This document shows, in pieces, positions 4,882 through 61,915 of a stretch of 64,000 nt of DNA. The number at the start of each line of letters is the position of its first letter. Within the stretch, counting starts at the first letter, position 1. Made by a program: the position numbers and the translations under genes. Source of the DNA: Morchella semilibera (taxonomy: Eukaryota; Ascomycota; Pezizomycetes; Pezizales; Morchellaceae); contig WBVU01000018.1 of assembly GCA_009192285.1 (NCBI GenBank), forward strand, positions 558,001 to 622,000. The letters run 5' to 3'. The notes under the pieces were generated by a model. It worked only from the letters and a program-made list of their open reading frames with translations, did not search any database and was not told the DNA's origin.

Positions 4882-4900
4882 AATCACGACCCATCACTCG
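4882..4900 (-). repeat. Dispersed motif CGAGTGAYRNNNYRTGA
   Basis: Reads CGAGTGATGGGTCGTGATT on the minus strand. One of 13 intergenic copies. Confidence 0.6.
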
Positions 4901-5156
4901 CTCGCCACACGCACTACTACTGCCCGCCCTTACCCACACTGCATGCACACCACACATAGATACATCCCTCTACTTATCCCTCCATCTACCAACCCCCAGG
5001 TAGAGTTGCAGCTGTAGATAGATACATATACAATACTCACACCCACACCCACCCGCCGTAGGACCTACCACCGCTTTCCACGGCGGCGCGCGGGGGGCGG
5101 TGGGTGGGTGATATGGTAACACACATATACCCGTCATCTAGAGTATGTAGCGGACG

Positions 5157-5175
5157 GATCATGGGATGTCACTCG
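5157..5175 (-). repeat. Dispersed motif CGAGTGAYRNNNYRTGA
   Basis: Reads CGAGTGACATCCCATGATC on the minus strand. Confidence 0.6.
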
Positions 5176-5471
5176 TCCTGTCTGCACTACAACAGGGTTG
5201 GCTTGTGTTGGTACCGCCTGTTGTGGCAGGTCACAGAAGCCGCCGCAAACACCGATCGACTCATGAGGTGAGGTGGTGGTAAGGTAAGGTAATAGTTAAG
5301 ATGTAGTAGTTACTTAGTACTTTAAGTAAGAAAAGAAAAACAGGAGGTAAAAAAAAAAAAAGTAGTATACAGCAAAAAAAAAAACAGTATCCATAAAAAA
5401 AAAAAAGGCAATAAACATTTCTTTCCCTTTCTTTCTCTTCATCCGCAACCAGAACCAAAAAAAAAAAGATT

Positions 5472-7324
5472 TTAATCATAATTAGCATTCCTATGTCTTT
5501 TTGCCGCCCCACCCGTAGGGGATCTTTCCCTCTCCTGTAGGCCGTGCTTCTGTCCCGCCTTTTCGCCGGCCGCCTTCACGAACGCCTCCACACCGAAGGG
5601 GTCGGCGGTGTCTTTTTCAAACTGGACGGGGCCGTCGCGAGCCTAGAAAAAAGACACGCCAATTAGATCTTTCAAGCACTTAGGGTGTATATATATATGG
5701 TAAAAACTCACCTCCTGATCTCCGCTCCCCTTGAACCCCTGTGCCGCCCTCCCCAGCACCTCGAAGCGCCCGCTCTTCTTGATCCTCTCCATCTCGCCCT
5801 CCGCCGCGTCCTCGTCGTCCTCGACCGAGACCTTCGGGCGGTAGATACTATTCGCGGCCTCCTGCGCGGCAAATAGCGGCTTATCGTAGGGCTGGTCCTC
5901 ATTGAAGCCCACATCGAACCCACTGCTCTGGTTGAATAACCGACTATCCCACATCGTCTCCTGGCTCTGCGTTGGCTTCGCCAGCCCCAGCGCAATCTTC
6001 TCACCAATGTCTCTACCCTGCTCGCGGGCCAGCAGCGCAATCTTCCGCTCGGTACCCATGCGCTTCATGCGCAGCTCGCGCTCCGCCTCGCGCCGCCGCT
6101 CAGCACGCATGGCTGACCGCGCAGCAGCACTTGATGTGTCTGACCCGCGCGAAGATGACCGACTACGTGATGAGGCCGTTGAGCGGGAGTCTACGGAGCC
6201 GGACCGGGACCGCGTGCGGCTGCGACCACGGGTAGCGTCCTCACGGGCCTTCTGTGCGAGCGCGCGGAGGTTCTCCTCTTTCTGCATCTTCTCCTTCTCG
6301 GCGAGCTTCTGCTGCATCAGGGCGCGCTGCTTGACTTCCTCTCGGGCGTGGCGGTCCGCCGTGAAGAGGGCCTCGGCGAACTGGGCGAACTTGTCGTTGA
6401 TGGTTACGTCCTGGAGACCCCTTCCGTCGGCTGCCAGACGCTTATCAAGCGGGACAGTGTAACCCTTGGGATTCTTCCAGTTGGACACGGCGGGGGTATA
6501 GTCCACGCCTCTTGGTCCGCTGCTGTCAGTTTCCGCGGTGGCGAGTGCATGACCGGCGGTGGGGGACTGGGCGGTCCCCGGGGAATCTTCTTGTGCTTGA
6601 ATTTTGGTGGCTCCATAGGGTCCTGCTGGCGCTCAACGATCTTGATGATCTTGTCCGACCGCTTTGTGGTATCTCCGACCTGGTTACTAGGAGTATATCG
6701 GACATACTGCGCCTCCTTCCTGTTCGTGCCTTTTATCGTCTTTGGCTTCTGTGCGGCGACAGCACCAGACACGAGGGCGGCCAGCGCAGCCTTTGTCTTT
6801 TCCGTCGTTGCCTTTACATCCTCCTCTGACGGGCGCTCCAACGAGATCTCACCAACGTCGGCGCGTTGACGCAGCGGGATCAGGTCCTTGAACGACGCGT
6901 GGACAATTCTCGAGCTGTTGTGACCCTGGCGCGCGATAGCATCGTACTTGATCTTTCCGTCCGAGTCCACCTGCAGGGAAAGGGCTTTTGATGTTGTTGA
7001 GGAGCCCTTGCGACCCATGTCGAGTGGATACTGCGCGATGGGGATTTCTGGGAATGCGCCACCGTCGTTGAAGTCATCGGTAGATCTAGGACGCCATGAC
7101 GACCGCTTTCCGTATGGTGGAGGTGCGTTTTTCTATGCGGGTTAGCTTTGGAGGGGGAAGTGGGGGGAGGGAATGGAAGCTTAGCCCACCTTGAGAACTA
7201 GCTGTGCTTGCTCTGCATCACCACCGCCGAGGATACGGGCTCCATTAGGACGTGAGGGAGCTGACTCGTCGGGGGTATAACGAGGCGCTGGAAGAACCTT
7301 ACTGAGGCTTGCTGAAAGTGACAT
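5472..7324 (-). CDS. SNW1: SNW domain spliceosome protein (SNW1/SKIP, yeast Prp45); one-base frameshift near 6490
   Basis: Three exons on the minus strand: 7324-7190, 7132-5712 and 5642-5472, about 575 aa. The start MSLSASLSKVLPAPRY is typical of the family. The SNW core follows, including the landmarks PPYGKR, EIPIAQYPLDMG and the signature SNWKNPKG, then KRLAADGRG. A charged helical region with an RS-like stretch and the conserved C-terminus (DKPLFAAQ, DPFGVEAFV) complete the protein. The protein is a core component of the activated spliceosome (NTC-related) and a transcription co-regulator in other eukaryotes. The frame breaks inside the most conserved motif, between EAWTIPP and AVSNWKN, at about 6488-6496 in a run of C and G. 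One extra base restores it, and no intron can fit, so this is almost surely a sequence error or a true disabling mutation. Divergent from DCC1. Confidence 0.93.
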
Positions 7325-7847
7325 TATTTAGAGGTTTATCTGGGGGGGGGGGGGGGGAAGGGGAGAGGGAGGGGTGAGAGGGGGAGGGAGAAATTGCTGA
7401 AGGGTTGAATGAATGTTTGTGCAAAAGGATGCGTGGTTGGTTTTTTTGGTGATGTCGCTAAAATGCCAAGATATGCGCCAAGACCGATAATCATAGGGGG
7501 GAAGATCATTGACAGCTCGGTCGAGTTTGAATCAACGACCGTTAAAAGATCCGGTCCCCTGTCTGAATTGGGGTTCTATCGACACTCTCTGACTTATAAC
7601 TGCTAGGACGAATTATATAGTCTTTGACGATTCTGCTAACAATTAACTACAGAGTTAGATACATATATATACAGCTAATAAACCGCACTCACGTTCCTGT
7701 CAGCGTCGTGACAGAAATCGCGTCCCCCCGAGTCGGGTCGATATATTTTTTGATCCAACATCTGCAAACAGACGTAGACCTGCAAACGGGCCTACAAACG
7801 AACATACAAACGAAATTTAAGAAGAAAAAAAGAAAGAAAAAACCTCA
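7325..7847. promoter_or_regulatory. Divergent promoter region between SNW1 and DCC1
   Basis: A 523-base spacer between two divergent genes. It has a G tract of about 13 bases near 7342, directly upstream of the SNW1 start, and an AT-rich half toward DCC1 (ATATATAT near 7663). Short ORFs here are not credible. Confidence 0.5.
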
Positions 7848-8615
7848 ATGACGCAGAACAACACAGGAATACCTATTTCGTTCTCTCACAACCTTTCTCC
7901 AATTCGTTTGATTGAGCTTCCTCCCGCCCTCCTTCCTCTACTCAAAACCAGCAATGACTCCCCACGTCCCACGTAACAAATCCCTCTCCCAATTCAGCTC
8001 TTAAAAGCTACAATTATATATAAATATCTCTATTATATACTCATAACTAACAGCCACCCCCTCCCCACAGCCTCTATATCAAAGCTTCCTCCGCTCCAAC
8101 ATCAGACAACAGCAGCAGCAGCAGCACCCAACCCCCCACCAACCACGCCGTCCTCACAACTCCCACCCAAACCTACTCCCTCCGTCAAGTCTACTCCTCC
8201 AACTCCATCCTCCTCCTCCAACCCTCCTCCTCCAGCAACACAAACCTCACCGTCGTCTCCACCGTAAACAGCTATATGGAGCTCATCCCCGCTGCCTGTG
8301 ATGCTACTACCCTTATCCTACAGCACGTCCCTGTGTTCCCTCCCCCCGAGTCCGTCGCCCCCGTCACCCGTACCTCTCTCCTCTCATCCCTCCCCGTCTC
8401 CCCCGCCGAGTTCAACGCCGCCTGGACCAACCTCTGCTGCTTCGACTGCCCTGAGGGCTTCGCCTACCGCCCGCTGCCCTCCACAATCCTCGAGACCCTG
8501 AAGGCCATCTCCCTGATCAACTACCATGACTTTGACGACGGCGTGGATCTCGCCAAGTTCCTCCCCGAGGACATTATCGAGGCCATCGACCGCTACTACG
8601 CCTTGGCCCACGTCG

Positions 8616-8647
<32 letters not shown>

Positions 8648-9132
8648 CAGGATGAAGAGCCCCGACGCTGCGTCCCCGGCCTCGTCAAGTCCGTCCTCGC
8701 GGAGGTCAGCATGTGCGGCAGCCGTGGGCTCGGCGGCGACTACAGGGCAATCGTCGAGGACAAACTCATGGAGTGGGTCGGGAGACTGGTCCTGGAGGAC
8801 TGGGCCCTGAAGGGTAGGGGTGATATGCTCTACATATCCTTCATGACGAAGTGGAGGCAGGAGGTCCCGGATTGGTTGTCGGCGGTCGATTGCGAGCTGA
8901 AGCTTATTGAGGTAGCGTTCCCCCCCCCCCTCCTTTAATTCTCTGGATATCCTTTTATCGTGCTGACTCTTTTTATTTTGCCTGGGGACAGGGATGGTAT
9001 ATCCTTCCGACACCTAACACGATCCGTTTCGCTCCTGGAGGAAAGGTGACGCCTGCAGAGGCTGAGGCGGCCGCGAAGTCACAGAAGAGGAATAAGTGGC
9101 ATGAGAGGCTTGGGAAGGGTAAGAGACGCTGA
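7848..9132 (+). CDS. DCC1: Sister-chromatid cohesion protein Dcc1 (Ctf18-RFC subunit)
   Basis: Three exons: 7848-7972, 8071-8911 and 8992-9132, giving 368 aa. The N-terminus (ISFSHNLSPIRLIELP, then TLYIKAS) and the block TQTYSLRQVYSSNSILLLQP are characteristic of Dcc1. The C-terminal winged-helix region ends with the conserved LKLIEGWYILPTP and a basic tail. An acidic run of Glu/Asp lies near residue 195. Dcc1 works with Ctf8 and Ctf18 in an alternative PCNA loader at replication forks that supports cohesion. Exon boundaries all keep frame. Intron 1 has a long AT-rich body and a CCCCACAG acceptor. Exon 2 has strongly C-biased third positions, like the neighbouring ZW10. An ORF starting at 8276 covers only part of exon 2 and is not the true start. 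Confidence 0.9.
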
Positions 9133-9908
9133 TGAATCGCGGTAGATAGCAAAAGTGATATCATCATACCACAACTTTGTTATTTATTTATCCAATACAA
9201 TGTTCTCTAAGTCTCGCGGGTGCACTGAAAAACATGCTTCATCGATCATTGACTACTTGATCCCTATGAAAGAAAAAAAACCAGCAGCTACCCAGAGGTG
9301 GGATGCAAGTAGACCAGTTCCCCATGCGTTATTTTGATTAGCGTCTTGTATATTAATTACTTTCTCTGCTGTACGCTGGGTAAGGATGTAGAGTCATGGT
9401 GTATCACTCGATTCCCCTAGCCTCAACAATGCTAGCCTGGGAAAATATATCCTTACTGTAATAGTGCCATTACTGCTTCTCTACCAAGGAAAATATTCTC
9501 ACAAAAGGGCAGTCAACCCCCCTTCTGTATTAGAGGTAGATATAACAAGAACTATATCCACTGCCAGACTCAATATTGTGAACACAACACAAAGTGTTAG
9601 GAAATTATCCTAATCGTGTCGATACAAGGCTAATCTTTAAGGAGCATCTACTATGTAATTACTACTAACTATGCCCGAGCCAACTAAAACCCCCTCCTCA
9701 TCGATACTCTAGACACAAAACCCCTTTGGGATAAAAAAAAAAATCAGGCCCCCAGCAAAGAATACTCCAAACGCCAACAGACAGGTTGTAATGACGTGTA
9801 ACCCAACCGACAGCCCAGATCGATAATGGGTCCGCCTTAAAGGCAAGCAAGCACAACACTCCTCAAACACAGCGCACCCCGCCGGCTAACTAACGTCTGT
9901 GCGCCAAT
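9133..9908. other. Intergenic DNA, no gene seen
   Basis: About 780 bases downstream of DCC1. AT-rich, with no credible ORF. It contains one minus-strand copy of the dispersed CGAGTGAY...RTGA motif at 9393-9410. The right end leads into an inverted-repeat cluster. Confidence 0.5.
9393..9410 (-). repeat. Dispersed motif CGAGTGAYRNNNYRTGA
   Basis: Reads CGAGTGATACACCATGAC on the minus strand. Confidence 0.6.
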
Positions 9909-10029
9909 ACTCGTACTTTCCTGACGTCTGTGAAGGGGGCCACAATTACTGTACTAAATTTTGGACTCAGCACGTATTTGTATGGCATGCAATAGTGGTC
10001 CCCTTTACAGACGTCAGGAAAGTACGAGT
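9909..10029. repeat. Hairpin-forming inverted-repeat element, copy 1
   Basis: Two arms of about 39 bases (9909-9947 and 9991-10029) are near-perfect inverted repeats. Both begin ACTCGTACTTTCCTGACGTC when read inward, with about four mismatches. The centre includes TAAATTTTGGACTCAGCACG and TATTTGTATGGCATGCAATA. It has no coding capacity. The compact palindromic form resembles a MITE or foldback element. A diverged second copy lies at 10295-10432. Confidence 0.8.
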
Positions 10030-10187
10030 ACATACAGCTACAGGAATGGTCTATGGAAAAAGCAGTTATGCGGTGCACAGATATTTTTCCATACAATTTT
10101 GACCCCTGTCTTTCCATTGATCATTCCTATCGCTGTAGAGTGAGGGTGAATCAATGCACATGTACATATGTACTCGGGGGTAGGGGA

Positions 10188-10282
10188 AAGAACCAGAAAA
10201 TGCAATAGGGTTATTTGTATGGCAGAGCTCCGCCGCTCCATACAAATAATCCCTGTATTGTCACTTGCATTTTCTGGTTCTT
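10188..10282. repeat. Nested palindromic element between the two foldback copies
   Basis: Left arm begins AAGAACCAGAAAATGCAATA at 10188 and contains TTATTTGTATGG. The right arm is its inverse (CCATACAAATAA ... TGCATTTTCTGGTTCTT), ending at 10282. The right arm has an extra nine bases or so. It shares the TATTTGTATGG word with the flanking elements, so it may be a related family. No ORF. Confidence 0.7.
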
Positions 10283-10294
10283 ATTCCTGTACGC

Positions 10295-10432
10295 GAGTAC
10301 GTACTTTCCTGACGTTTGTAAAGGGGACCACTATTGCATACCATACTAAATTTTGGGCTTGGCGCGTATTTGTATGGCATGCAATAGCGGTCATTTTCAC
10401 AAACGTCAGGAACATACGAGTATGTGAACGCC
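10295..10432. repeat. Hairpin-forming inverted-repeat element, copy 2
   Basis: Arms of about 48 bases start GTACTTTCCTGACGTTTGTA on the left and read as the inverse on the right, ending near 10432. The centre TAAATTTTGGGCTTGGCGCG matches that of copy 1 with substitutions. The arms extend further inward than in copy 1 (CTATTGCATACCATA against TATGGCATGCAATAG). Copy 2 therefore looks more complete, and copy 1 has lost part of its left arm. Confidence 0.8.
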
Positions 10433-10500
10433 GCGGGCATTGCACCGTTGGTTTAGGACTATGTCGCCCGGTAAAGGCTATATACATGTAGCTATGGTGC

Positions 10501-10656
10501 CGTGATAAACCTGCGCAATCCAATCTTAGGGCACTGGTAGGTTTATAAACCTGGGCGTGTTTGGATCCCAAAAACCGCACCGAAAACCGTGGTTTTGGTG
10601 TGTAAATAAAACCCTACTTGACCCGACCTAACGGCGGCGACGGCAGGTTTATCACG
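10501..10656. repeat. 156-bp element with 14-bp terminal inverted repeats
   Basis: The termini CGTGATAAACCTGC (10501-10514) and GCAGGTTTATCACG (10643-10656) are exact inverse copies. A third related word, AGGTTTATAAACCT, lies inside at 10539-10552 and is itself palindromic. No ORF. It resembles a small non-autonomous DNA element, but target-site duplications are not obvious. Confidence 0.6.
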
Positions 10657-11201
10657 ACCAGTACCAACTAAGCGGGAGAAGAGTCTCTATTGTATGTTCT
10701 TTTTGAGTTGCATGTGCTGTTTTTACCCCTTCTTTCTTTCAGTCTTCTAGGCTTCAACCTAAAACCTATCTCCCCCGCAACCACCCTCTCAGTATATATA
10801 GTTAGATCCGAGTGGATCACAATAGTAGTACGAAGTGTTTCTGGCCATATCGCGCCGAACGGTTACGCAGCACTCTACGCAAGGGGTGTAAGAAGTAAAA
10901 TACCCCCAAAGGGTCCTAAATTCCTACCTTGGCCATCCCACGAGACCAAACCAATCATCCGAGTGATGAATCATGACTCATGACAGAGTTTATAAGCTCC
11001 CGCTAAAAAAAAGAACGAAGGAAGGCTTGAGTTTCGTACATACAGAAGCGAGAGGGAAATATTCCAAGTAAAGAAGACTTAAAAATACATGAATCCATAA
11101 AAAGAAAAGGAAAAGAACAGCTTAATTATCCCCCCAAAATCTCGTTTTCTCTTTTTCTATGCGCTCTCTGCCTTACACGCAACAGGCAAAGACAAGTTAC
11201 A
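10657..11201. other. Intergenic DNA upstream-distal to SPT5 3' end
   Basis: AT-rich 545 bases containing a plus-strand copy of the dispersed motif at 10960-10977 and A-rich sequence just downstream of the SPT5 stop. No credible gene. Confidence 0.45.
10960..10977 (+). repeat. Dispersed motif CGAGTGAYRNNNYRTGA
   Basis: Reads CGAGTGATGAATCATGAC on the plus strand. Followed by TCATGAC, making a near-palindrome. Confidence 0.6.
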
Positions 11202-14200: not shown

Positions 14201-14620
14201 TCTTCATCGTCCTCTTCGATATCGTCTTCATCCGCGTCGACTTCTGCTTCGACATCCAAGAACTGATTTCGCCGGACTTTACTGCGATGGCGTTTTCTTC
14301 GAGGTTCCTATGTCTAGAGTCAGTAAATGTATACCACCAATTTCAATTCCCCTGACCGCGGCGTGATGCTGGGTTACAGGGGCTTAACTTACGACCTCCT
14401 CGTCCTCTTCGTCCTCGTCCTCCTCATCTTCATCATCGTCGTCCTCTTCGTCGTCCTCTTCGTCCTCTTCTTCGTCGTCGACAGCCACGGGGGCTGCGTT
14501 GACCTCATCATCGGGCTCTCCTTCGGCATCCTGGTCGCCGTGCGCATTTTCGGCGCCGAAATCCTGGTCGTCTTCGTCAGATTCTTCGAGGTCGTGATCG
14601 TGCAAGTTTGATGTAGCCAT
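11202..14620 (-). CDS. SPT5: Transcription elongation factor Spt5
   Basis: Five exons on the minus strand: 14620-14393, 14307-12803, 12747-12160, 12101-11763 and 11703-11202, encoding 1053 aa with every junction in phase. Order of parts: an acidic Asp/Glu N-terminus, the Spt5 NGN domain (SIWGVKCKPGKEREII), several KOW motifs (GTWVRFKRGKYQGDLA, GDTVEVYDGEQQGVIG, FREGDHVKVTGG, RVGDTVKEVAG, RMGPQKGLMGIV), then a C-terminal region with SRTPAW and SAPTPG repeats. Spt5 pairs with Spt4 and binds Pol II; the repeats are the phosphorylated CTR. Intron 3 (12102-12159) contains a run of about 15 C but keeps normal GT-AG ends and joins GFK to DPITGTIRSYQEF. The start MATSNLHDHDL is used; an in-frame upstream Met at 14842 is unlikely. 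First of three minus-strand Pol II genes. Confidence 0.96.
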
Positions 14621-22213: not shown

Positions 22214-23476
22214 CGGGGATGATGGCTGACAATAAAATAAAAGATTGTAAAGTGGAAATGTTCGCGCGAAAATGCAGACAAACAGGCAGGTAGCAGCGCA
22301 CAACACACTCTCTTGAACTTCCTTTTCTCTCTTGATCTTCAAGTCTTTTGGTAGATGTCTCTAACTATTCACTTTCACAAAAAGGAAAAGCAATACGAGA
22401 CTCCGAAGCCGAATCAAAACACACGCGATCCACTTCTGTTTGTCCCGCCGTTCTCCTTTGTTCCTTGTGGCCTTGAGTCCCTCCCTCCTTTTCCGAAGTT
22501 TTCTTCCCTTTTTTTCCTTTTTTTTTTCTCTCTCTCACACTTCCTTGTTACCCAACAAAATTAACACCAGTATCACCTTCTTGTATTGATCGGCGAGAGA
22601 GAAGAAGAATGCTGGTATCGCTTCACTTCACGATGTTGCGGAAGCGGATATATAGGTTTGGTGTTGAAGAGTTGATGTTGGATGTCGTCGTCGCCGTCGG
22701 GAAAGATGGGGAGAGAGGTTGGGACGTGAGCGCTGGCCTCCGCCCAAGGGTTGAAACGGTGATACAAGGTTATGATTGGTTGCGGTGAGTCAAGGGGAGA
22801 AAAAGCTTTAGCTGCGATCTGATAAGATTGACCCAGACACAGCCACTGAATGGAATTATTATTATTATACCTACTGGGCTTTTAGTCAGGCTCTCATTAA
22901 ATACTATGTATAGTACTTTTGTCTTTCTTCACAGAACGCTTAAACCTTTGCATGTAGTACATGCACTTGTAGTCTCGGGGCTACTACGTGACGTTGAACG
23001 TAGACACCTCGGCTAGGGATTATAACTACATGTACATACATGTACCTACATGTATCTCCTGTTCTACCAAAGACCTCACTGAACGGTAATCTGGTCCACT
23101 GCGTTGCGAAAATGTAGCCTTCTGCCCAATTACATCAACTTACATGTAGTCATCAGGCCTGAGAATTGGGAATTACTGCTACCGAGGAGGATTTATCATT
23201 ATTAGGGGCGGTTCTCTCTCCTGTTTGTAACACACCTCCATTGATACCCTTCGATGAAGTAACCCAGGACCCAACTTAGTACTAGTACGTGCAAGAGCTA
23301 CTATCATACGCACATATAGGGGGGGAAGGAGAAAATCGGTTGGGCTAGAGCACCTTTTGATAGACCGAGTGACATTCCATGATATAAATGCAGCTCAACA
23401 ATTCCAGTTTATTTCATATATCTTTAGTCTACCAAAGATTCTACCCTAGTCTATGTCTATTCTTGTAGACTGGTAT
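22214..23476. other. Spacer between PCF11 start and CCT3 stop
   Basis: A 1.26-kb stretch. The PCF11 promoter side is C/T-rich near 22430-22560. TACATGTA-type palindromes lie at 23026-23052. A plus-strand copy of the dispersed CGAGTGAY...RTGA motif lies at 23366-23383, just beyond CCT3. No credible gene. Confidence 0.5.
23366..23383 (+). repeat. Dispersed motif CGAGTGAYRNNNYRTGA
   Basis: Reads CGAGTGACATTCCATGAT on the plus strand, about 95 bases from the CCT3 stop. Confidence 0.6.
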
Positions 23477-27782: not shown

Positions 27783-27812
27783 GACGGTATACGCCTATGA
27801 TCCTTGGTGTGC

Positions 27813-39100: not shown

Positions 39101-40986
39101 GGAGTTTAAATTGTTAATCGGAATATTTTCTGGGGGGGGGGGACAAAGAATAGGCAAGCTGATTGATCGCTGCGAAATGAGGAATAGTCGTTATGTGTAT
39201 ACAACGTTAGTAAGCTTGGGCTTTTCACCAGTTAGGACTGAGTCACCTGTTCCCGGTAATGATAAGGGTGCAACTTTTTCTTAGACAACCTAAGAGCTTC
39301 TCAGGTCGCGCGCTGGAACATGAGTCATCAGTCCGTGGGGTGCGTTACGTCTAGACCAATGAAGCATCGCCTATGCCACACTCCAGCATGTACGGGCGTT
39401 GGAGTTATATGGTTGGAGCAGTGGTATAGAGATACCTAGTCGCCAGATCTAGAGCTGACTACAATTGCAACCATAAGCTTTTGTAGCACCGTGACATCTA
39501 CCGTGTAGCGGTCGAGGTAGGTCAATGCAGAAAATAACTCAGATCAGGTTAACCTCCCAGCAATAATGACACCTTGAAACATGGGTCTTTCTTTCTATGC
39601 ACTGATCAACATACTCGGTAGTCTACCCTCCAAAATCACAGATATATACAACATATCCCTCTCAGACCACCCAATCTAAGTTTCAGGCAAAAATCTTGGA
39701 GACGAGATCCCGAGAGAATGGCTCGGCGCTCCTGTTGCGGGGAATCATAGATACATGTAGATACGATATATGGACAACGCATGTGCGGGCATTGGGTGGT
39801 GTTGTAGCGATAAGAAAGTTTGATTAAGGTTTAGTGGAGGGCTCCGGAAGGGGTTATACTTCTTGTAGACCCTGGAGAAAACTCGTGGTGTTTGTGGTTT
39901 TGACATGGTAAAGTAAGTTATGGTATTTACGTTAACACTTTTATGCAATAAATGAAGTAAACAAAAAAAACGTTAACATTTTTTATGGTTTTGATGTGGC
40001 TGGTGGGCGAGTGAGATTCTGTGATTCTGAGAGTTGTTTCGTAAGCCGGTTCTGGGAACGAGACTAATCAACCCCATATTTATCTCTAGAATAAAGGTCA
40101 TCGACCTTGGTACAATTGCAATACTCGAGAGCCCCATCTCTTCTCCCCCACCGCTTTACGCCAACAAGCTAGCGTACTAAGTAAGGGATATGCACCACAT
40201 GCAAAGCGGCGAAGTGGTGCCTACACAAACGTAAAAAGCGTACCATACAGAGAATGGACTATACCCGATCTACAAATACCATATTAGTTGAAGTCGTGCA
40301 TGCACATCGATCCCCGACAAGCCAAGATCTAGCCATGTATGTAGCGTAGATGCCGTACATAGCCGGCCCTCATAGCTCATTGCATTAATGTTACGTGTAA
40401 TATGTGTAATATCGTGGAGCGGACGGGAGAGTACGTCTGCACCTCGGGCTCAACTTTGGTAATGGGACTTGGCTATGGTACGCCAGAGTCGCGAGAATGT
40501 GGTGCGCCCTGTGAAATGTCATATACGGGAAATAGGCGCGCTCCGAGTAACGGCGCTAAACATACCGTGTACTGTTCCCCGGAAACCCCACCGCATAAAG
40601 ACAAGCAAGACATTGACTACATTACATGTAGTAACATTACTGGTGAAATTAATTGAGCGCTAGCGCTAGTAGCCGCTGGCGTGTAAACAAAACTAAAACC
40701 ACTGTGATAAACCAATTAAAGGCTAAATCTAATGCGCACATGTACCTACATGTATGTACATACAGTATCCGGTAAAACTACCACGAAAGGTTCTCTGTGA
40801 CCCAATAGCCCTATTGGCCCTTAAAAGGTTTTTGCTGCGAGAAGACTAGTAAATCCACTCTTTTAGTTCTGGCCTTCGTAATAATTCTATTGGGTACTGT
40901 ATATGTAAAGACTCACTGTTTTTGGCTTAGCTAATATCCTAGCTAGCTCACCAATAATCGTGTCTCGGATCAGCCATTATGCCAGG

Positions 40987-41005
40987 GTGAGTGATATTCT
41001 ATGAA
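40987..41005 (+). repeat. Dispersed motif, first base changed
   Basis: Reads GTGAGTGATATTCTATGAA on the plus strand; the first motif base is T rather than C. Confidence 0.55.
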
Positions 41006-44401: not shown

Positions 44402-44418
44402 CGAGTGATATCCTATGC
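44402..44418 (+). repeat. Dispersed motif CGAGTGAYRNNNYRTGA
   Basis: Reads CGAGTGATATCCTATGC on the plus strand; the last A is C. Confidence 0.55.
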
Positions 44419-45061: not shown

Positions 45062-45079
45062 GTCATGAAATATCACTCG
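45062..45079 (-). repeat. Dispersed motif CGAGTGAYRNNNYRTGA
   Basis: Reads CGAGTGATATTTCATGAC on the minus strand. Confidence 0.6.
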
Positions 45080-51231: not shown

Positions 51232-51248
51232 GCATGAGATATCACTCG
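51232..51248 (-). repeat. Dispersed motif CGAGTGAYRNNNYRTGA
   Basis: Reads CGAGTGATATCTCATGC on the minus strand. Confidence 0.6.
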
Positions 51249-52302
51249 ATCTACCCACGGTGCCGCCCAGGAACCCGCCCCCCGTAGGGTATGAGCGAAT
51301 TGCGTAAATGCATGCAAGCGGCGCCTTAGCGCTGTAATATAATGCGGGGGCATGCGTTTGCCGACGCCGTCTTGTACTTTGGTGTTGCGGTAACATATAG
51401 GGTTTGGGACTGAATCTCTAGTACATACGGGTTGTTGCTACAATCGCTGACGGTGGCCTGGTAATCTAGGTTCCTCACCGGTAAATATGTTGCCTACTGA
51501 GGTCTCGAGCTATGTCGGTGCTGTAAGTCCGCCCTCGGCACTATTTCTTTCTCACTTTCTTTTTGGACTGTATATAATGTACTACGTAACTTTACTTACC
51601 TCCGCTACTTTGTGGGCCGTTGGTGGATATTGCGGGGTAGGACTATGTAGGTAATGGTGTTGACCATGTTCTGCCTAGGAGACGATGTTCACCCCGCCCA
51701 GGCTGCTTCATCACATCAACTAGCAGGTTGGTCTTCTCAGAAGACGCATATACTAACCCTGAATGGAGTCGACTCACCCTAGGTCTTTTTCACGAGGTAC
51801 GTTAAGAAGCTCGGGAGTTGTTGTATTACTGGCCTAACAATACATTCGCTGACTGTGCTGTGGTCTAATGTCCTTCATCATCATTTTAATTAGTAGCGGT
51901 TTTATCCCCTGGTGTTTAGGCGGAGGGGGATGCCCGTATGAGGGGTCTGTGTGGGGTGCAGCGGTGATTTAGATTTCGTGAGCTTGCTCTTTCAACGCAG
52001 CGTTTCTCCCTCTGGGTGCTCTGACAAGTAACCTCGCGTTGGGCGTTTCGTATACACCGATATCCCTCGTACGTGTCGAGGTGCGCCCTTCGTTTGCCAC
52101 TTGGCTTTTAGTGGCCAGGTCAGCTTTGTGTGAACCTCTTCGCATATGGCCTCCGAAAACAGCTATCCTATCGAGACTATCCTACCTGTGTAGGATCCTA
52201 GCGGGCTCTTCGAGGCCGGGCGTTGCTACATTTTGGCATTGGTCGCAGAAAGAAGTGCGATATCTGGAGATAGCGCTCGGGGTTGTTGTGGTGCTGGTTT
52301 GC

Positions 52303-52320
52303 CGAGTGATATCTCGTGAG
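52303..52320 (+). repeat. Dispersed motif CGAGTGAYRNNNYRTGA
   Basis: Reads CGAGTGATATCTCGTGAG on the plus strand. Confidence 0.6.
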
Positions 52321-52629
52321 CAAACCCCCCCCCCCCCCACCCCACCAACACCACCGCACTCCCACCCGCCAGCAGGGAATGCCAAGCACAAATTGAGGGA
52401 GTTGGGGAGTTTGTCGCGGCGAATTCTCCAGCCCGCTCCCAAAGCCAAGTCCCTACCTACGAATTGTAAGAAAAATAAAATTAGGGCTTGGCACAGTCTC
52501 CATCTTGCTATATAAGACCATCTTTCCCCCCCTCCTCCAGCTCTTTTCTTTCACCATCAACCTGAACCTCCCGGAGGCAGAGGGGGGGCTCCCTCGCCTC
52601 CTCTCCTCCCTTCTGCCTCTCTCTCCCCC

Positions 52630-53235
52630 TCTGCCTCTCTCCCCCTTCCTGGCTCTTCCTTCCCCCTTTGGCTCTTCCCTTCCCTTCTGGCTCTCTTCCC
52701 TTCCCTCTGGCTCTCCTCCCTTCCCTCTGGCTCTTCCCTTCCTTCTGGCTCTTCCCTTCCCTCTTCCTCTTCCTTCCCCTCTGCCTCTTCCTTCCCCTCT
52801 GGCTCTTCCTTCCCTCTGGCTCTTCCTTCCCTCCCTCTGGCTCTTCCTTCCCTCCCTCTGGCTCTTCCTTCCCTCCCTCTGGCTCTTCTTCCCTTCCCTC
52901 TTGGCTCTTCCCTTCCCTCTGGCTCTTCTTCCCTTCCCTCTTGGCTCTTCCCTTCCCTCTGGCTCTTCCTTCCCCTCTGGCTCTTCCTCCCTGGCTCTTC
53001 CTCCCTCCCTGGCTCTTTCCCTTGCCTGCCCCTTCTGAGGGGCAGGCACGTAACTCAGGCCTCTCCTGGTCCTTGGGCAAAAAGCCCAAGGACCAGGAGA
53101 GGCCTGAGTTGCGTTAGGACCCCCTACCCTCTGGCTCTTCCTTCCCCTGGCTCTTCTTTCCCCTCTGGCTCTTCCTCCCTGGCTCTTTCTCCCTGGCTCT
53201 TCCTCCCTCCCTGGCTCTTTCCCTTGCCTGCCCCT
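52630..53235. repeat. C/T-rich minisatellite (CTGGCTCTTCCTTCCC-type units)
   Basis: About 600 bases of tandem, length-variable units built on CTCTGGCTCTTCCTTCCCTC, interrupted at 53023-53110 by two hairpins. One strand is almost free of purines other than the GG of TGGC. Long ORFs in several frames on both strands (up to 265 codons) are products of the repeat and encode only Ser/Leu/Pro or Gly/Arg/Glu runs; I do not regard them as genes. Confidence 0.85.
53052..53110. repeat. Hairpin 1 of array, perfect 27-bp arms
   Basis: Arms 53052-53078 and 53084-53110 are exact inverse copies (AACTCAGGCCTCTCCTGGTC ...), with a 5-base AAAAA loop. It is followed by GCGTTAGGAC. A smaller hairpin with 11-bp arms (TGCCTGCCCCT / AGGGGCAGGCA) lies just upstream at 53023-53048. 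Confidence 0.9.
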
Positions 53236-53252
53236 CAGAGGGGCAGGCACGT

Positions 53253-53312
53253 AACTCAGGCCTCTCCTGGTCCTTGGGCTTTTTTGCCCAAGGACTAGGA
53301 GGGGCCTGAGTT
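53253..53312. repeat. Hairpin 2 of array
   Basis: Arms of 27 bp (53253-53279, 53286-53312) with two mismatches and a loop of six T. It is followed by GCGTTAGGAC. The small TGCCTGCCCCT hairpin precedes it at 53225-53249. Same left arm sequence as hairpin 1. Confidence 0.9.
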
Positions 53313-53340
53313 GCGTTAGGACCCCCTACCCTCTCTTCAT

Positions 53341-53389
53341 AGGCCCTTCCTGGCCCCTAGGCTTCATGCCTTGGGACCAGGAGGGGCCT
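53341..53389. repeat. Hairpin 3 of array
   Basis: Arms 53341-53362 and 53368-53389 (AGGCCCTTCCTGGCCCCTAG...), 22 bp with about three mismatches and a TTCAT loop. A T-run and ACGTTAGGAC follow. Shorter than hairpins 1-2 and spaced about 85 bases from hairpins 4 and 5. Confidence 0.85.
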
Positions 53390-53428
53390 TTTTTACGTTA
53401 GGACCCCCCCGGGCCACCTCTCGCTCAT

Positions 53429-53476
53429 AGGCCTCTCTTGGTCCCTAGCTTTATGCCTGAGGACCAGGAGAGGCCT
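53429..53476. repeat. Hairpin 4 of array
   Basis: Left arm AGGCCTCTCTTGGTCCCTAG at 53429, right arm ending GACCAGGAGAGGCCT at 53476, loop TTTAT. It is followed by TTTTTTGCGTTAGGAC. A few mismatches are present. Confidence 0.85.
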
Positions 53477-53509
53477 TTTTTGCGTTAGGACACCCCATCC
53501 CCTCCTCAT

Positions 53510-53558
53510 AGGCCCTTCCTGGCCCCTAGGCTTCGTGCCTGGGGACCAGGAGGGGCCT
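53510..53558. repeat. Hairpin 5 of array
   Basis: Arms 53510-53531 and 53537-53558 (AGGCCCTTCCTGGCCCCTAG...), loop TTCGT. A run of six T and GCGTTAAGTCC follow. It closely matches hairpin 3. Confidence 0.85.
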
Positions 53559-54213
53559 TTTTTGCGTTAAGTCCTCCTCGCCCTCTTCCCCCCTCGCCCC
53601 GCCCTGTACTGCTATCGAACTCTGGGCGCAGCCGAGGGTTCGAAAGTGGTTTCTCTTCCCCAAGCTAGCTGCCATTATCCTCCCCGACCTAATAACCATG
53701 TGGGCAGAGTGTAAATATAAGCTATACGCTTAATTCCTTTATCTAATATTCATAGATGTGGGCCCTAGAGCCAGATAGGGTAATGATAAAAACTCTCTCT
53801 TATAGGATATTGAGCGTTGTAGGCCCATATCGAAGATAGATAACTCAATATCAAGGGAGAACGCCGTATTTTGGTCGCGAGCGCAGGGAGTGCATTGCCG
53901 AGTGATATTCTGTGATCTGGAGATCTTACTCGCCCGAAAATATACTTTATGTGGTAACCGCACCTAAACCGTCAACAGACCTTAATTTCTTTGGGGGGGG
54001 GGGGGGGTCCTTACGCGATATGCTTTGCTTTGGTGTTAATATTATCATAGGAAACCAATCTGCGTACTAGGCTCAAACTCTCAGTCATTACATTCGCTAC
54101 GATCTAGATTCGCTATCCATTTATTTACAAAAGAAATAGGCCAAAGAAACCCAATTCACCCAATAAAAACTCCATCCCAAGCACATCTGCCCATTACCCA
54201 TCCTCATTAGTAC
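53559..54213. other. Intergenic DNA before COG8 stop
   Basis: About 650 bases with a plus-strand copy of the dispersed motif at 53899-53916 and a G tract near 53992-54007. GATATTGAG and CTCAATATC form a loose inverted pair near 53806-53855. No credible gene. Confidence 0.45.
53899..53916 (+). repeat. Dispersed motif CGAGTGAYRNNNYRTGA
   Basis: Reads CGAGTGATATTCTGTGAT on the plus strand. Confidence 0.6.
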
Positions 54214-55548: not shown

Positions 55549-56582
55549 TGTGGTATATTTGGAGCTGTGGAGGGCGTAAGTAATGTTCACAGATTCCGAG
55601 TGCTTACTGATGTCTGTAGCTTTAGGTTCCGAATAGGTTGTCCGTGTCCCGCGGCCGTTACCCGGACGAGTAGCGGGGTTAAGATGAAGACTGTAAGTAC
55701 TACACGAAGAGGATACGTGAGCTGTCTGAAACTAAAGTTACATGCATGTACTAACTCCTTTTCTGATTATTTGGGTTAATTGTTTTCGAATATGTACTGG
55801 TTATAAAAAATTTTGCTGAAGCATGACAGGCAACTGTGATTTGATTAATGAACGCGGAGACTTGCTAGCTCATGCCTTGGAGTCAAACAGAGCAATTAAT
55901 TTTCCGTCTGGCAATGCGTCACGGTCCAAAGCTGCTTGAATCAATATACGAGATATTCGGTATTAATATCATTCATAGATACTATCTTACCGAGTGATAT
56001 ATCATGACTCACTGCTGTCTCAGTCTCCCGCTTAGTAAAGCACACACCCGAAATCTGATCCGGAGAATCAACACCTAGAAGAAGCATGGGTGAAATAGAA
56101 CAAAGGCTCCCATAATTAAGGCCGGTATTCTACTAAAAACAATCCCTCCAACACCCCAGTTTTATCCAATTCTATCCCATAGTATTTGAAGCAAGGCAAA
56201 TTCTACAGACCTATCCCCATACCATGTGCCAGAGTGAGCATACAGACCAAAAAAAAAAAAGGTTCCCGACTGTAAGTACATACATGTAACAGTCTTGGCA
56301 CTAGCACAACCCCACCAAAAGTGATTCGATCCTAGCTCTAACCCCAACCCACACAACGACCTCACCTCCACAAAAGAAAAGTAACACACCTTCCCTTTCA
56401 CCATCCTTCTATCAATTGCCGGTTTCCCATCTTGCTTCCTGGTGTTAGAAAGCTTAGAGACCTGAGAGAAGTACGGGTGTTCCCTTGTCCCCCATCAGCT
56501 GACTGACCCCTCCTCTCCTCCGGCTGGCTGCAAACTAAACTTCAGTTACAGTAATACAGACCCCACAAACCTTTCGCCCATC
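55549..56582. promoter_or_regulatory. Divergent region between COG8 and NAA15
   Basis: About 1.03 kb. A plus-strand copy of the dispersed motif lies at 55991-56008, and a TACATACATGTA word near 56277. C/T-rich sequence lies just before NAA15. A minus-strand ORF at 56162-56404 is not credible. Confidence 0.5.
55991..56008 (+). repeat. Dispersed motif CGAGTGAYRNNNYRTGA
   Basis: Reads CGAGTGATATATCATGAC on the plus strand, between COG8 and NAA15. Confidence 0.6.
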
Positions 56583-59329
56583 ATGCCACAGGCTCCTCTC
56601 CAGACAAAAGACGCAGCTCTTTTCCGACAAGTCCTGAAATGTTACGAAACCAAGCAATACAAAAAGGGTCTTAAAGCTGCCGAAGTCTACTCCCCCCTCC
56701 CCCCCAGCACGCGCACATCAAAACTAATCCCTCTTAGCAAATCCTCAAGCGTAACCCAAACCACGGCGAGACGCTTGCTATGAAAGGTCTGATTACCAAC
56801 TCCCTCGGCCGCACCACCGAAGCCTTCGCTATCGCCAAAGAGGCATTGAGACAAGACATGAAATCGCACGTCTGCTGGCATGTCTACGGTCTCCTCTACC
56901 GGTCCACGAAGAATTTTGAGGAGTCTATCAAGGCCTATAAAATGGCGCTGCGCTATGAGCCAGAATCCCAACAGATCCTACGTGACCTTGCGCTTCTCCA
57001 GATTCAAATGCGCGACTATGCAGGTTACATTGAATCGCGGCGGCAGATCTTGCAGGGGCGACCACAGCTCCGGCAAAACTGGACCGGTCTGGCAATTGCG
57101 CAGCATTTGTCAGGAAACTATGCAGAAGCCGAGAATGTCATGGCAAAATTTGAAGAAACGCTGAAGGTGCCAATAGGAAAGGGCGATGTAGAGCATAGTG
57201 AGGCGGGGCTATACAAGAATATGATTATTGAGGAATCTGGGGATATTGAGCGGGCACTAGCGGATTTAGAGAAGATCTCAAAGACTACATTGGATAAGAT
57301 CTCAGTGCTAGAAAAGCGGGCGGAGTATCTACTAAAGCTTGAGAGGAAGGAGGAGGCCGCAGCGGCGTACAAGGTGCTATTAGAGAGGAATCCAGAGAAA
57401 AGGGCGTATTACCAAGGTCTAGAGAAGGTAATGGGATGCGAGGGAGACACAGCGGCACGAAAAGCGCTGTATGCGGAGTATGCGGAGAAATACCAGAAGA
57501 GTGATGCGCCCAGGCGGATCCCACTAGATTTTCTAAGTGGGGATGAGTTTAAAGAGGCTGCAGATGCTTATCTGTCGAAGTTGCTCAAGAAGGGAGTGCC
57601 ATCGTCTTTCGCGAACGTTAAAGCACTCTATGCTGATGCCGAAAAGCGTGCGATCATTCTCGACCTTGTCCAAGGATACGCTGAATCGCTCGATAATGAG
57701 GAGCCGCAAGTCGTCGAAACCCCTACCAATGGAGATACGAATGGTAGTGGGGTAGCAAAGACCACCAAGTCAAGCGAATTCAAACTATGGACTCTCTATT
57801 TCCTAGGGCAGCATTACGACCATTACCGCACACGCAACACAGAAAAGTCTTTGGAGTATATCAACAAAGCCCTTGAAATTAAACCGGAGCAAGTAGAATT
57901 TCACATGGCACTTGCACGCATCTACAAGCATTCCGGAAATCTACAAAAAGCTATGGAGAAAATGGACGAGGCCCGCAATCTTGACAAAAAAGACCGCTAC
58001 ATTAATACAAAATGTGCCAAGTATCAACTCCGCAATGACCACAACGAGGAGGCCCTCGAGACCATGAGTTTGTTTACAAGAGTACATCCCTAACCCCCAC
58101 CTGGTCCACTGCAGAGACCTGACAGGAAAACTAACTGTCCTGTAGAACGATGCACATGGTGGTCCTCTCGGCGACCTCCTCGAAATGCAATGCGTATGGT
58201 TTATCACAGAGGATGGCGAGTCATACCTTCGCCAAAGAAAATTCGGTCTGGCTTTGAAACGCTTCCACGCTATTCTCAAGATCTTTGAGGACTGGACCGA
58301 TGACCAATTCGATTTCCACAGCTTCTCGCTCCGGAAAGGGCAGATCCGCTCATATGTTGAGATGCTCCGATGGGAAGACACCCTGCGCTCCCACCCCTTC
58401 TTCACTCGCGCCGCGCTCGGGGCCATCAGAGCCTACATCATGCTATCCGATAGACCTTACCTCGCACATTCGTCCCTCTCAAATGGAAACAATGACAGTT
58501 TCGACTTCGAGGGTCTTTCGGCCGCAGACCGCAAGAAGGCCCTTAAGAAAGCCAAGCGCGAGGCTCAAAGGGCACAAGAAAGAGCTGTTGAGGCCGCTGC
58601 AAAAGCAAAGGAAGAAAAGGCGAAGAATGCTCAGGTTGCCAATCTCGACGATGAGAAGAAAAAGGATGATACCGATCCCCTGGGAACAGAACTTGCACAG
58701 ACCAAAGAGCCCTTGGAAGATGCTCTCAAGTTTTTGAACCCACTGCTTGAGTACTCACCAGGCGGGCTGGAAGTCCAGACAAATGGTTTTGAAATCCACT
58801 CGAGGCGGAAGAAGTGGCTCTTGGCAGTAAAATGCCTCCGTGCTGCACAGAAAATTGATCCAGAGAGCCCTGTAGTACATTATCAGATCATACGCTTCCG
58901 AACAATGGTCTCAAAGCTTTCTGACGAGGATATCAAAGCCCCCTCTAAGGAAGTACTCATCTCAACACTTGAGGAGATCCTCCCCGCAGCTACCGACCTA
59001 GCTGTTTACAATGATGAGTTTACGGCTAAACATTCTCAGAGCGCCCCTCACATACGTGGAGGTACTTCTCCCTCCTCTTTTCTCTATTAGACATATACTA
59101 ATTCATTGTAGCACTACGAGCCCGCAAGTTCTTGAACGCTGATGCACCTACCACACCGCTGTTTGATGCACTGGATCTGGGAGGGATATCTTTTCGCGAT
59201 GTATTGGAGGGACAGTCGCTACTCCAGGAACTGAGGGTATCGGAAGAGCAGATTAACAAATACAATCAGAAGGCTGCTACGATGTTTCCTGACGCAGTAG
59301 CATTCAAGGAGAAGGCAGTGGCGGAGTAG
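56583..59329 (+). CDS. NAA15: N-terminal acetyltransferase A auxiliary subunit (Naa15/Nat1)
   Basis: Four exons: 56583-56684, 56738-58081, 58146-59061 and 59112-59329, 859 aa in phase. The whole protein is TPR-like helical repeats, opening MPQAPLQTKDAALFRQVLKCYETKQYKKGLK, with family blocks NPNHGETLAMKGL, LRQDMKSHVCWHVYGLLYRS, RRIPLDFLSGDEFK and VWFITEDGESYLRQ. A lysine/glutamate-rich charged segment (AADRKKALKKAKREAQRAQE) lies near residue 620, as in other Naa15. Naa15 anchors the catalytic Naa10 to the ribosome and shapes the NatA active site. Intron 1 has an unusual GTCTAC donor but is required to join GLKAAE to QILKRNPNH. Divergent from COG8. Confidence 0.96.
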
Positions 59330-60061
59330 AGATATTATTTAAGCTTTCACCGGAAAGGGTGGGGGTTGGAGGAATATAGTTAGTCAAAAAGCCGGGATTT
59401 ATGGTTTGGGGGGAAAAATTGCATGTATATTTTCTTCTTTCATTTCTTCCCGTCTGAATATTGAGTGTTAGTTCAGCAAAAGTTTGGGGGCTTAGAAAAA
59501 AAGTGTTTAAATTTTTTGTGGGGATAAGTACTTGGGTGGCCAATATTCGAGGGTGATGAGAATGGATTTTGAGTAGATGGGTACAATGCACTCGACCCTA
59601 ACTTAGGTCCATGAATGTATAAAATGGTTTGATGTGCGCCTAGTGCTTTCGGCGAAACATTCCCAACGTATTGATGGACCGAGGAAGCTTCATCATCTTC
59701 GGGGTATTCACCAGTATCCAGGAATAACTTGCACCCCACCCCCAGTCGGCATCATTTATTGTCGTTAAATCGTTAATTGTACGTAGCCCAAATCGACATC
59801 ATAGTTGATTGATCAATTCATTAAGTACATGCATTCAATCAACGTTATAGATAAAGTAAAAATTAACTACCACATACACGCTAGCATGAGCTAACATAAT
59901 TTATAGCTCAGAGCCAGTATATGGTAACTACATGTATAGGTTTACTTGAGAGACAAAAGAAGGCAGAAAACCCCACGGCTGGGCCCGCTACCCAAACAAG
60001 AAAGACATCCCCCATCGCTGAATACGCCTACCATAAGAAGACCTAGTTGGCAAAGAGTAGG
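59330..60061. other. Intergenic DNA
   Basis: About 730 bases downstream of NAA15. AT-rich with an ACTACATGTATAGG word near 59927. No credible gene. Confidence 0.45.
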
Positions 60062-60634
60062 TTAGTATACCCGCAATAAAAAGAAATATGACACGGGCAT
60101 CGGTGAACTTGCATGACATGTAGAGCTGCGGTTAGGACCTGCAACATACGGCACCGACGGATCGTAAACGTCGCGACGGAATTCTACTGGGATGTGCAGA
60201 TGACTCTGGTCCTGGTGACTGTATCGGCCGCTCAAAACAACAGTTGTGACATCGAGGGGCAAGATATCGCTCCGAGACTCGGTCTGGACTTGATATTGGG
60301 CTCGGACCAAGGAAGCCTGAGCCTGGGCCAGGGCAGTCTGGGCTTTAATCAGAGCGCTTTGAGTCTCGATCTGGACACGGCACTGGGCATGGGCCAAGGA
60401 GGCCTGGGCCTGGGCCAGAGTGGTCTGAGCTTTAGTCAGAGCACTGGTTGTCTCAACTTGAGACCGCGCTTCTTCGAAAAGGTGTTCGTTAGCTGCATGA
60501 TCTCCCGGGAGTATCCCATGGACTACAATTCGTCGTTCATGCTGGGGTGGGTGGGGTCTGTGGGTGATAGACACACGAAACCCTCTGGGGGGCGCGTAGG
60601 TTTCAACTTGCTCACAGTAGCCGTAGGTCTCCAT
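60062..60634 (-). CDS. Orphan ORF, 190 aa, with a duplicated Ala/Gln helical repeat
   Basis: A single-exon minus-strand ORF starting METYGYCEQVETYAPPRGF. Its centre contains two near-identical units of about 29 residues (SALTKAQTTLAQAQASLAHA and SALIKAQTALAQAQASLVRA). They have alanine and leucine at regular spacing, suggesting a coiled coil or amphipathic helix. No known domain was recognised. The opposite strand is also open for 178 codons over the same bases, and the repetition is visible in the DNA, so the ORF might be a chance product of a tandem duplication. No introns, no obvious promoter. Could be a lineage-specific gene, or not a gene. Confidence 0.4.
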   Translation of the reverse strand: METYGYCEQVETYAPPRGFRVSITHRPHPPQHERRIVVHGILPGDHAANEHLFEEARSQVETTSALTKAQTTLAQAQASLAHAQCRVQIETQSALIKAQTALAQAQASLVRAQYQVQTESRSDILPLDVTTVVLSGRYSHQDQSHLHIPVEFRRDVYDPSVPYVAGPNRSSTCHASSPMPVSYFFLLRVY

Positions 60635-61915
60635 GGTGGTGTTGGTTAATTTCTTCGAGACTAGAGGGGGTAAACGTCTTCGGGAGGTGTTAAGTATTAC
60701 TCTAAGTATCTGGGTTGATAAATTTCGAAATTCTTATAGTGAAAATATGGAAGGAGAGATTGTGTAGTATGTAGTTAGGGTGATTTTTTGACCTCATAGA
60801 AATAATCTGAGTTCCGGTCCCCCTATACTCTTTTCATTTATTCACGCCTTTTTGAATAATTATGTATACCCATTTGATTCCGAATTAGGCTTTTCTATAC
60901 ACCCGGCCCGGGCCCATGGAGTTACAACTTAACTTGTATATAATATATCTTATCAGCTGTGCCTTTCACGCGTTCAGGACATACGGCAATATCACAATGG
61001 CTTACGGATAATAGAAATGTGATAGTACATGTAGTATCCTCACATATAAGTGTAACCTATCTGTAAGTTAACCAAATCCACATAGCTACATGTACTTACT
61101 ATACCGCTACGTAACTACCAGAACCACTCGCAAAATAGTAGGCCTATGTCTGGATAAGCTGTAATATTTCCCTACATATGATGAGAATCCCCAACTAATA
61201 CTAAATTTACTCTTCTTTAAGCTCGAGAATACTGCTTTAATTCGGCATCCCTACAAACTTCAATGGTTGCACGGTGCCAACCCTACATGTAAAAGTCACT
61301 GGCATAAACACACTACATGTATCAAACCTAAAAGTTGATAATACCTACAAATTTTTATAACCGTAAAGCCAGACAGCTATGTACTTAATGAATCAATTAG
61401 TCAATTAAATCAAAACCCCATAGTCTGTAGTTTTAAAGAGTCGAGTGATAGTTTGTGATCCATATAAGTAATGATCGCTTAGGCGCCTAACCATCCACAG
61501 AAACCTTGTAACTAGCAGCTCTCGGTTATAGCCTTACAGGGTATATTGGATACATGTAACTTAGCTAATTAATGGATGTGGTTAGTGGTGGGCACACCAT
61601 GACCGCCACTGAAAAATTAAAGGCCCATTTAGTAGCTACATACATGTAGATAAGACAGAGGATCAAGGCCTAACAGATCGTTGAAGCGGAGTTTACAACC
61701 CCGTTTTGGCCTGTTGCCAAACGGGCCCTAAGACACATATCAGTGGGTTATAGAGTTGGTATTGAATAAATTCAAAAACGAAACAAAAAAAACGCAAATG
61801 AACTACTAAGGAAAACGGTTCAGCTCTGTATATGTAGTTGCTGACACCAGCTCATCGCTCTAAAACAATCTAACATAAAGAAACTCATTATACGTAGGGG
61901 CTGTTTGGTTGAAAT
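60635..61915. other. Gene-poor DNA
   Basis: About 1.28 kb, AT-rich. It contains a plus-strand copy of the dispersed motif at 61442-61459 and several TACATGTA words (near 61028, 61090, 61285, 61315, 61552 and 61640). No credible gene. Confidence 0.5.
61442..61459 (+). repeat. Dispersed motif CGAGTGAYRNNNYRTGA
   Basis: Reads CGAGTGATAGTTTGTGAT on the plus strand. Confidence 0.6.

Follow-up and report, generated by a model that had tools for sequence, protein, structure and literature searches.

A dispersed bipartite intergenic word in Morchella semilibera, a candidate site for an abundant DNA-binding protein

The 64-kb window analyzed here (positions 558001 to 622000 of contig WBVU01000018.1, called C15 below, of the Morchella semilibera assembly GCA_009192285.1) raises the question of why one short, gapped DNA word recurs between its genes. 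The initial annotation of this window had listed 13 copies of a 17-base pattern, eight on the plus and five on the minus strand, and all 13 are matched exactly, at the same positions, by GAGTGAYRNNNYRTG. In 100 dinucleotide shuffles of the window, this pattern occurs 0.12 times on average and twice at most, and the claim that it lies far above chance holds for the whole genome (56,756,124 bases in 23 contigs) as well. The element can be written as C-GAGTGA-N6-RTGA. From its form and distribution, we read it, with a probability of about one half, as the bipartite site of one abundant DNA-binding protein with a general regulatory or chromatin-organizing role.

Abundance and anatomy of the motif

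Genome-wide, GAGTGAYRNNNYRTGA is present in 5,386 copies (2,648 and 2,738 on the two strands), against 17 for the same pattern read backward, and the minimal form GAGTGA-N6-RTGA in 9,924 copies, against 366 for its backward control. These counts are somewhat inflated because near-duplicate contigs are present in the assembly. The contig pairs C12/C13 and C21/C22 carry identical rare motif variants at almost equal offsets, and a 3,000-bp sample compared between C21 and C22 shows no mismatches and one gap; the pairs are haplotypes or duplicated assembly contigs. Position statistics were obtained from 264 kb of C15, together with a small sample of contig C1. The 264 kb contain 39 copies of the 15-base pattern and 57 sites in a wider set, with a mean distance of one motif per 4.4 kb. 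Motif density varies, as a 30-kb stretch of C1 (C1:2200001-2230000; L029 to L031) is free of copies and still has 11 predicted genes.

The anatomy of the signal was read from 52 aligned GAGTGA-N6-RTGA copies of C15, in which GAGTGA, R, and TGA are fixed by the selection of copies. GAGTGA is preceded by C in 48 of the 52. Within the spacer, the first base is T or C in 47 copies and the next is mostly A (33 copies), the middle two are nearly free, and the last two are mostly pyrimidines (41 and 45 copies). Outside the motif nothing is conserved: over approximately 20 to 24 bases on each side of these 52 copies, no position exceeds 0.24 bit, in agreement with the earlier description of the flanks as dissimilar. 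The two constant parts repeat directly, as (A)GTGA and RTGA, at a distance of 10 bp, or roughly one helical turn. Their spacing is strict. When gaps of 0 to 15 were scanned in the 264 kb, 52 copies were found at N6 and between 0 and 6 at any other gap; genome-wide, N5 and N7 spacers occur 463 and 361 times (controls, 359 and 304).

In a sample of 75 copies from several loci, extending beyond C15 alone, the GC content of the spacer follows that of the surrounding ~500 bp (Spearman correlation, 0.39; p = 0.0005). This argues for a free spacer, since a mobile piece would bring its own. With a spacer of local composition, a near-invariant core, and unrelated flanks, the suggestion in the initial annotation that a tiny mobile sequence could have left the word behind as a scar finds no support. 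A mobile scar or repeat end was rejected on the same grounds, namely, the lack of shared flanks over 20 to 24 bases and the free spacer that tracks local GC content.

Other known short elements share some of these features. The CENP-B box has 17 bp and two contact blocks, and the motif is like it in length and two-block architecture. However, the motif has another sequence and occurs as single intergenic copies and not in satellite arrays, except for one local 31-bp array described below. A short conserved word in thousands of copies, with random orientation and unrelated flanks, also recalls the upstream motif of nematode PIWI-interacting RNA (piRNA) genes, and the motif might similarly be the promoter element of thousands of small noncoding RNA genes. 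Yet no second element or conserved position lies within 20 to 24 bases on either side, and neither a tRNA nor any Rfam family passing the gathering score is present in the window. To our knowledge, no such system exists in fungi, which we also counted against this explanation, and we regard it as very unlikely.

The core is sharply delimited. The 17-mer is matched exactly at 31 sites across the 264 kb, and with one, two, and three mismatches at 24, 25, and 122 sites, respectively, compared to 0, 0.95, 15.4, and 145 sites for 60 permuted 17-mer patterns. Among the one-mismatch sites, 22 of 24 differ at degenerate or edge positions and two within the invariant core. Two core changes were counted genome-wide: GAATGA, with 60 copies against 27 for its control (five of the 60 being one repeated sequence), and GAGCGA, with 27 against 20. 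Because the N5 and N7 spacers and both core changes drop to near background, recognition of the motif looks all-or-none. Under mutation-selection-drift balance, the excess of intact copies over chance expectation translates into a scaled advantage. The ratio of 5,386 to 17 corresponds to ln(317) = 5.8, a scaled advantage of about 6 per site, and the near-chance one-step variants would confer little or no advantage. Drive acting on the sequence itself, discussed below, would yield intact and variant numbers identical to these.

Position of the copies relative to predicted genes

Genes in the 264 kb were predicted with our own gene finder, based on a third-order coding Markov model and GT-AG introns, under two settings, which gave 78 genes with 2.28 introns per gene and 71 genes with 1.99 introns per gene. 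These models replaced initial, over-spliced versions that had about 1,300 introns in 62 to 72 genes and then 473 introns in 70 genes. Of the 57 sites, four (first setting) or six (second setting) lie beyond the last predicted gene at either end and do not enter the exon counts; a further three or one, respectively, lie in predicted introns and were excluded from the gap counts. No copy falls within an exon (0 of 53 and 0 of 51), where 25.9 and 23.6 would be expected by length (P about 3e-16 in the first setting). For all 57 sites, the corresponding expectations are 27.9 and 26.3. In the window, the 13 copies and one additional near-copy are intergenic under both settings, as had been proposed, and neither a frequency at shuffle level nor an equal density in coding sequence, the latter checked in the 264 kb, was found. 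In 3-kb pieces picked for the motif, which have few predicted genes (L001 to L008), 11 of 11 copies lie outside predicted genes.

Within the gaps between genes, 50 copies could be placed under either setting. In the first, 12 lie in ++ and 10 in -- tandem gaps, 20 in convergent gaps, and eight in divergent gaps (random expectation, 12.4, 7.5, 17.5, and 12.6, respectively); in the second, these numbers are 10, 6, 19, and 15 (random expectation, 15.7, 5.8, 14.5, and 14.0). The depletion of divergent gaps in the first setting depends on the gene models and is not significant (Fisher p = 0.19). In both sets of predicted genes, convergent gaps are no poorer in copies than others. Copies weakly avoid the first 100 bp from genes (two versus 7.0 expected; three versus 5.8 in the second setting) and favor distances of 200 to 400 bp (16 versus 9.6; 14 versus 8.9). 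None was found in gaps below 500 bp, which amount to only 16 gaps and 5.6 kb (12 gaps and 4.3 kb in the second setting). Along tandem gaps, the relative position is central, with a mean of 0.45 (0.38 in the second setting).

A conventional transcription factor that binds promoters and controls a very large regulon would also produce a bipartite motif that is intergenic and present on both strands. We consider this explanation unlikely, given that no concentration in promoters was seen: copies occupy convergent gaps too and, in tandem gaps, are positioned away from the downstream ATG. Under the first setting, the convergent share exceeds the divergent one by 20 to 8 of 50; the second setting, with 19 and 15, does not establish a depletion of promoters. 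Moreover, a regulon would have to accommodate about 10,000 copies. A role confined to promoters was rejected on the convergent count of 20 of 50 and the mean tandem position of 0.45.

Orientation follows no rule that could be detected in the 264 kb. In tandem gaps, 10 of 22 copies lie on the strand of the genes (seven of 16 in the second setting), and a signal acting at the RNA level, in 3' untranslated regions or processing, was rejected because this strand choice is random. Neighboring copies share a strand in 30 of 56 cases, compared to a shuffle mean of 27.6; this random order is the observation that bears on a boundary or silencing signal, another suggestion of the initial annotation.

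A putative general factor and competing explanations

Among the options raised in the initial annotation, the strongest support is for a site bound by an abundant factor; it comes from the bipartite core, the fixed spacing around a free spacer, the unconserved flanks, the occurrence in both orientations, and the exclusion from predicted exons. Since (A)GTGA and RTGA point the same way at an interval of ten base pairs, one putative protein, or two similar domains, would touch one face of the DNA twice. Its sites may be kept by weak, genome-wide selection, considering that intact copies stand approximately 300-fold above chance and the tested one-step core variants near chance. The protein could then act as a general factor that clears nucleosomes or separates neighboring transcription units. 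Such a general or architectural role is favored over promoter control because the copies lie in promoter and terminator (convergent) gaps alike, on either strand. Occurrence on both strands, in any gene arrangement, at random spacing, and outside predicted exons argues against an RNA signal, a mobile scar or repeat end, and a promoter element of the ordinary kind.

In budding yeast, the sites of the general regulatory factors Abf1 (RTCRYNNNNNACG), Reb1, and Rap1 concentrate in promoters. The morphology of the motif is similar to theirs: long, partly bipartite, intergenic, abundant, and present on both strands, with a free spacer flanked by two fixed parts as in Abf1. In contrast to these yeast sites, it has another sequence and spacing, is not concentrated in promoters, occurs in far more copies, and leaves hardly any weak variants. 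A search for the ABF1 family alone (PF04684) gave no matches in the genome and likewise none in 14 control genomes.

In animals, noncoding DNA carries CTCF and other insulator motifs in the thousands, as dispersed sites that are long and asymmetric. The Morchella motif matches this description but, unlike CTCF sites, follows no strand rule between neighboring copies. According to excerpts of a review, the CTCF gene is confined to higher metazoans, and fungal elements that bound chromatin loops are incompletely characterized (PMC10246852). It is this situation of fungi without CTCF that lends the motif its interest, although the same excerpts state that some fungi may need no such elements. Among the open-access titles and abstract openings listed for GAGTGA, GAGTGAT, CGAGTGAT, and ATCACTCG, none names the motif, and the letters of its half-sites do not appear in the main text of a Fusarium motif paper (PMC2853525) or of a DNA language-model paper (PMC10985990). 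The abundance and sharp definition of the motif offer a direct handle on the putative protein and its role, be it in nucleosome positioning, boundaries, replication, or transcription ends.

Several observations weigh against a protein-binding site. The exclusion from exons depends on our own gene models, and looser models differ: under an over-splicing setting (6.8 introns per gene), seven of 39 strict copies fall in predicted exons and five in introns. Similarly, in 30 kb of C1, one of 14 copies is exonic, in a gene of 168 amino acids with a weak prediction, and three lie in introns. The distances between copies are Poisson-like (coefficient of variation, 0.99), and there is no placement preference except that exons and, weakly, the ~100 bp next to genes are avoided. 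From a positional regulator one would expect more regular placement, which leaves room for drive at the sequence level. In addition, there is no AT-rich collar, as the AT content around the copies is flat at 0.49 to 0.58. Finally, almost no weaker sites exist, though an ordinary factor usually leaves many.

Under sequence-level drive, the word would be useless in place but favored once it has arisen, for instance, through gene conversion biased between alleles or protection from an enzyme. Bacterial uptake sequences and HIP1 of cyanobacteria provide the models; these occur within genes too. The motif shares with them a huge excess of the exact word, random spacing, presence on both strands, and a near absence of decayed copies. 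The avoidance of predicted exons (0 of 53 and 0 of 51) sets it apart, and this exclusion, together with the slight shortage of copies within ~100 bp of genes, speaks against drive. Furthermore, we know of no such mechanism in fungi, which was also counted against it. Drive is an unlikely explanation on our estimate, but it stays a serious rival because the spacing of the copies is random.

The same DNA also contains a second, unrelated word that is nearly as sharp, a point in favor of drive. A scan of pairs of 4-mers separated by a gap, covering 142 kb of noncoding DNA of C15, has two dispersed families at its top, namely, TACATGTA, a palindrome, and the C-GAGTGA-N6-RTGA motif, with GTAGGTAC and CTAGCTAG as weaker words. 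Once these two families and simple repeats are masked, the top remaining pair reaches 6.6 on a stricter, bin-based score that forms a separate scale. TACATGTA occurs 159 times in the 264 kb, whereas 8-base palindromes have a median of four and its own one-step variants occur five to 47 times. Only two of the 159 copies lie in exons. Its extended form TANNTACATGTANNTA is found 3,317 times genome-wide, compared to 251 for the backward control. TACATGTA is a second near all-or-none intergenic word. It does not cluster with the motif, the median distance between the two being 659 (random, 495; standard deviation, 132).

The motif could alternatively mark replication origins, cohesin-loading sites, or loop boundaries, in keeping with its orientation-free placement in nonpromoter intergenic DNA, including convergent gaps. 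However, the mean gap of 4.4 kb in the 264 kb of C15, with random spacing, is narrower than the usual spacing of origins, and the copies have neither an AT-rich neighborhood nor a strand rule between neighbors. They are also denser than the globules of ~40 to 80 kb described in the excerpted review (PMC10246852). The same excerpts indicate that heterochromatin anchors may remove the need for CTCF-like boundaries in some fungi and that data from Neurospora speak against an insulation of internal euchromatin by proteins (PMC10246852). An origin, cohesin-loading, or loop-boundary function is distinctly unlikely.

A bolder reading is possible, if doubtful, on the present counts: the ~10,000 all-or-none copies, scattered randomly between genes, may represent either the site of a master chromatin-organizing protein of this lineage, a functional counterpart of CTCF or Abf1 marking promoter and terminator gaps equally, or the first eukaryotic iterated word kept by drive instead of local function. 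TACATGTA would then be another word of this type in the genome. If no protein depends on the motif, it would be a rare case of a eukaryotic word maintained by drive.

Copies in the window and local repeats

Ten of the 13 window copies match the full 17-mer CGAGTGAYRNNNYRTGA at every base. Two minus-strand copies, CGAGTGATGGGTCGTGA (4884..4900) and CGAGTGACATCCCATGA (5159..5175), share the convergent gap between the stops of a predicted ZW10-like gene (4718) and a predicted SNW1-like gene (5472). The convergent gap of the Dcc1-like and Spt5-like genes likewise holds two copies, CGAGTGATACACCATGA on the minus strand (9394..9410) and CGAGTGATGAATCATGA on the plus strand (10960..10976). CGAGTGACATTCCATGA (23366..23382, plus strand) lies in the tandem gap between a CID-domain gene and a TCP-1 chaperonin gene. 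The 14th site of the window, outside the 13 exact copies, is the near-copy CGAGTGAGATTCTGTGA (40008..40024, plus strand), in which G replaces Y while core and spacing are intact. It is followed by TGAGTGATATTCTATGA (40988..41004, plus strand), which begins with T and lies in a divergent gap.

Downstream of a helicase gene, one gap is shared by CGAGTGATATCCTATGC (44402..44418, plus strand) and CGAGTGATATTTCATGA (45063..45079, minus strand), and a convergent gap farther on by CGAGTGATATCTCATGC (51232..51248, minus strand) and CGAGTGATATCTCGTGA (52303..52319, plus strand). The copies at 44402 and 51232 differ from the 17-mer at the last base, ending in C. The remaining three copies are on the plus strand: CGAGTGATATTCTGTGA (53899..53915) in a tandem gap, 306 bp from the stop of a COG8/Dor1-like gene; CGAGTGATATATCATGA (55991..56007) in the divergent gap of the COG8/Dor1-like and NatA-auxiliary-subunit genes; and CGAGTGATAGTTTGTGA (61442..61458), intergenic in a gap that is tandem in one gene-model setting and convergent in the other.

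Pfam assignments in the window comprise ZW10, SNW1, Dcc1, Spt5, TFIIF-beta, TCP-1 chaperonin, Ydc2, CorA, helicase, EAF, COG8/Dor1, and NatA auxiliary subunit. For the last of these, the best PDB matches are 5nnp/5nnr (519 bits), 9fpz (370 bits), and 4kvo/4kvm (366 bits), which we take to be from Chaetomium, human, and fission yeast, respectively; by these protein matches the organism is an ascomycete resembling Pezizomycotina.

A 31-bp minisatellite is present on C21 (C21:530001-533000; L035), at positions 369 to 2547 of that piece, and on C22 (L036), with approximately 23 units in four blocks. Its units consist of facing GAGTGA half-sites, and telomere-like CCCTAACCCT pieces occur in the same stretch. 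As four copies of the motif, exact or nearly so, lie within the minisatellite, the dispersed copies could be scars or terminal pieces of a mobile or satellite repeat. This origin is extremely improbable. All 24 genome-wide matches to the exact unit pattern fall at the C21/C22 locus, although diverged units may escape such a search, and in the 264 kb of C15 the sequence nearest to the unit core has six mismatches in 24 positions; of five stretches with six or seven mismatches, three are at motif copies. BLAST of the L035 piece against the same 264 kb returned two short, weak matches only, neither at a motif. The dispersed copies, moreover, share nothing beyond the 17 bp, vary in the spacer, and are rarely mutated in the core. 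We take the array to be a local amplification of sites from which the dispersed copies are not derived.

Two further repeated features were observed in the window. The palindrome TACATGTA forms a cluster at 23027 to 23148, and an imperfect repeat block with CCCTCTGGCTCTTCC-like units and periods of 14 to 202 extends from 52604 to 53569.

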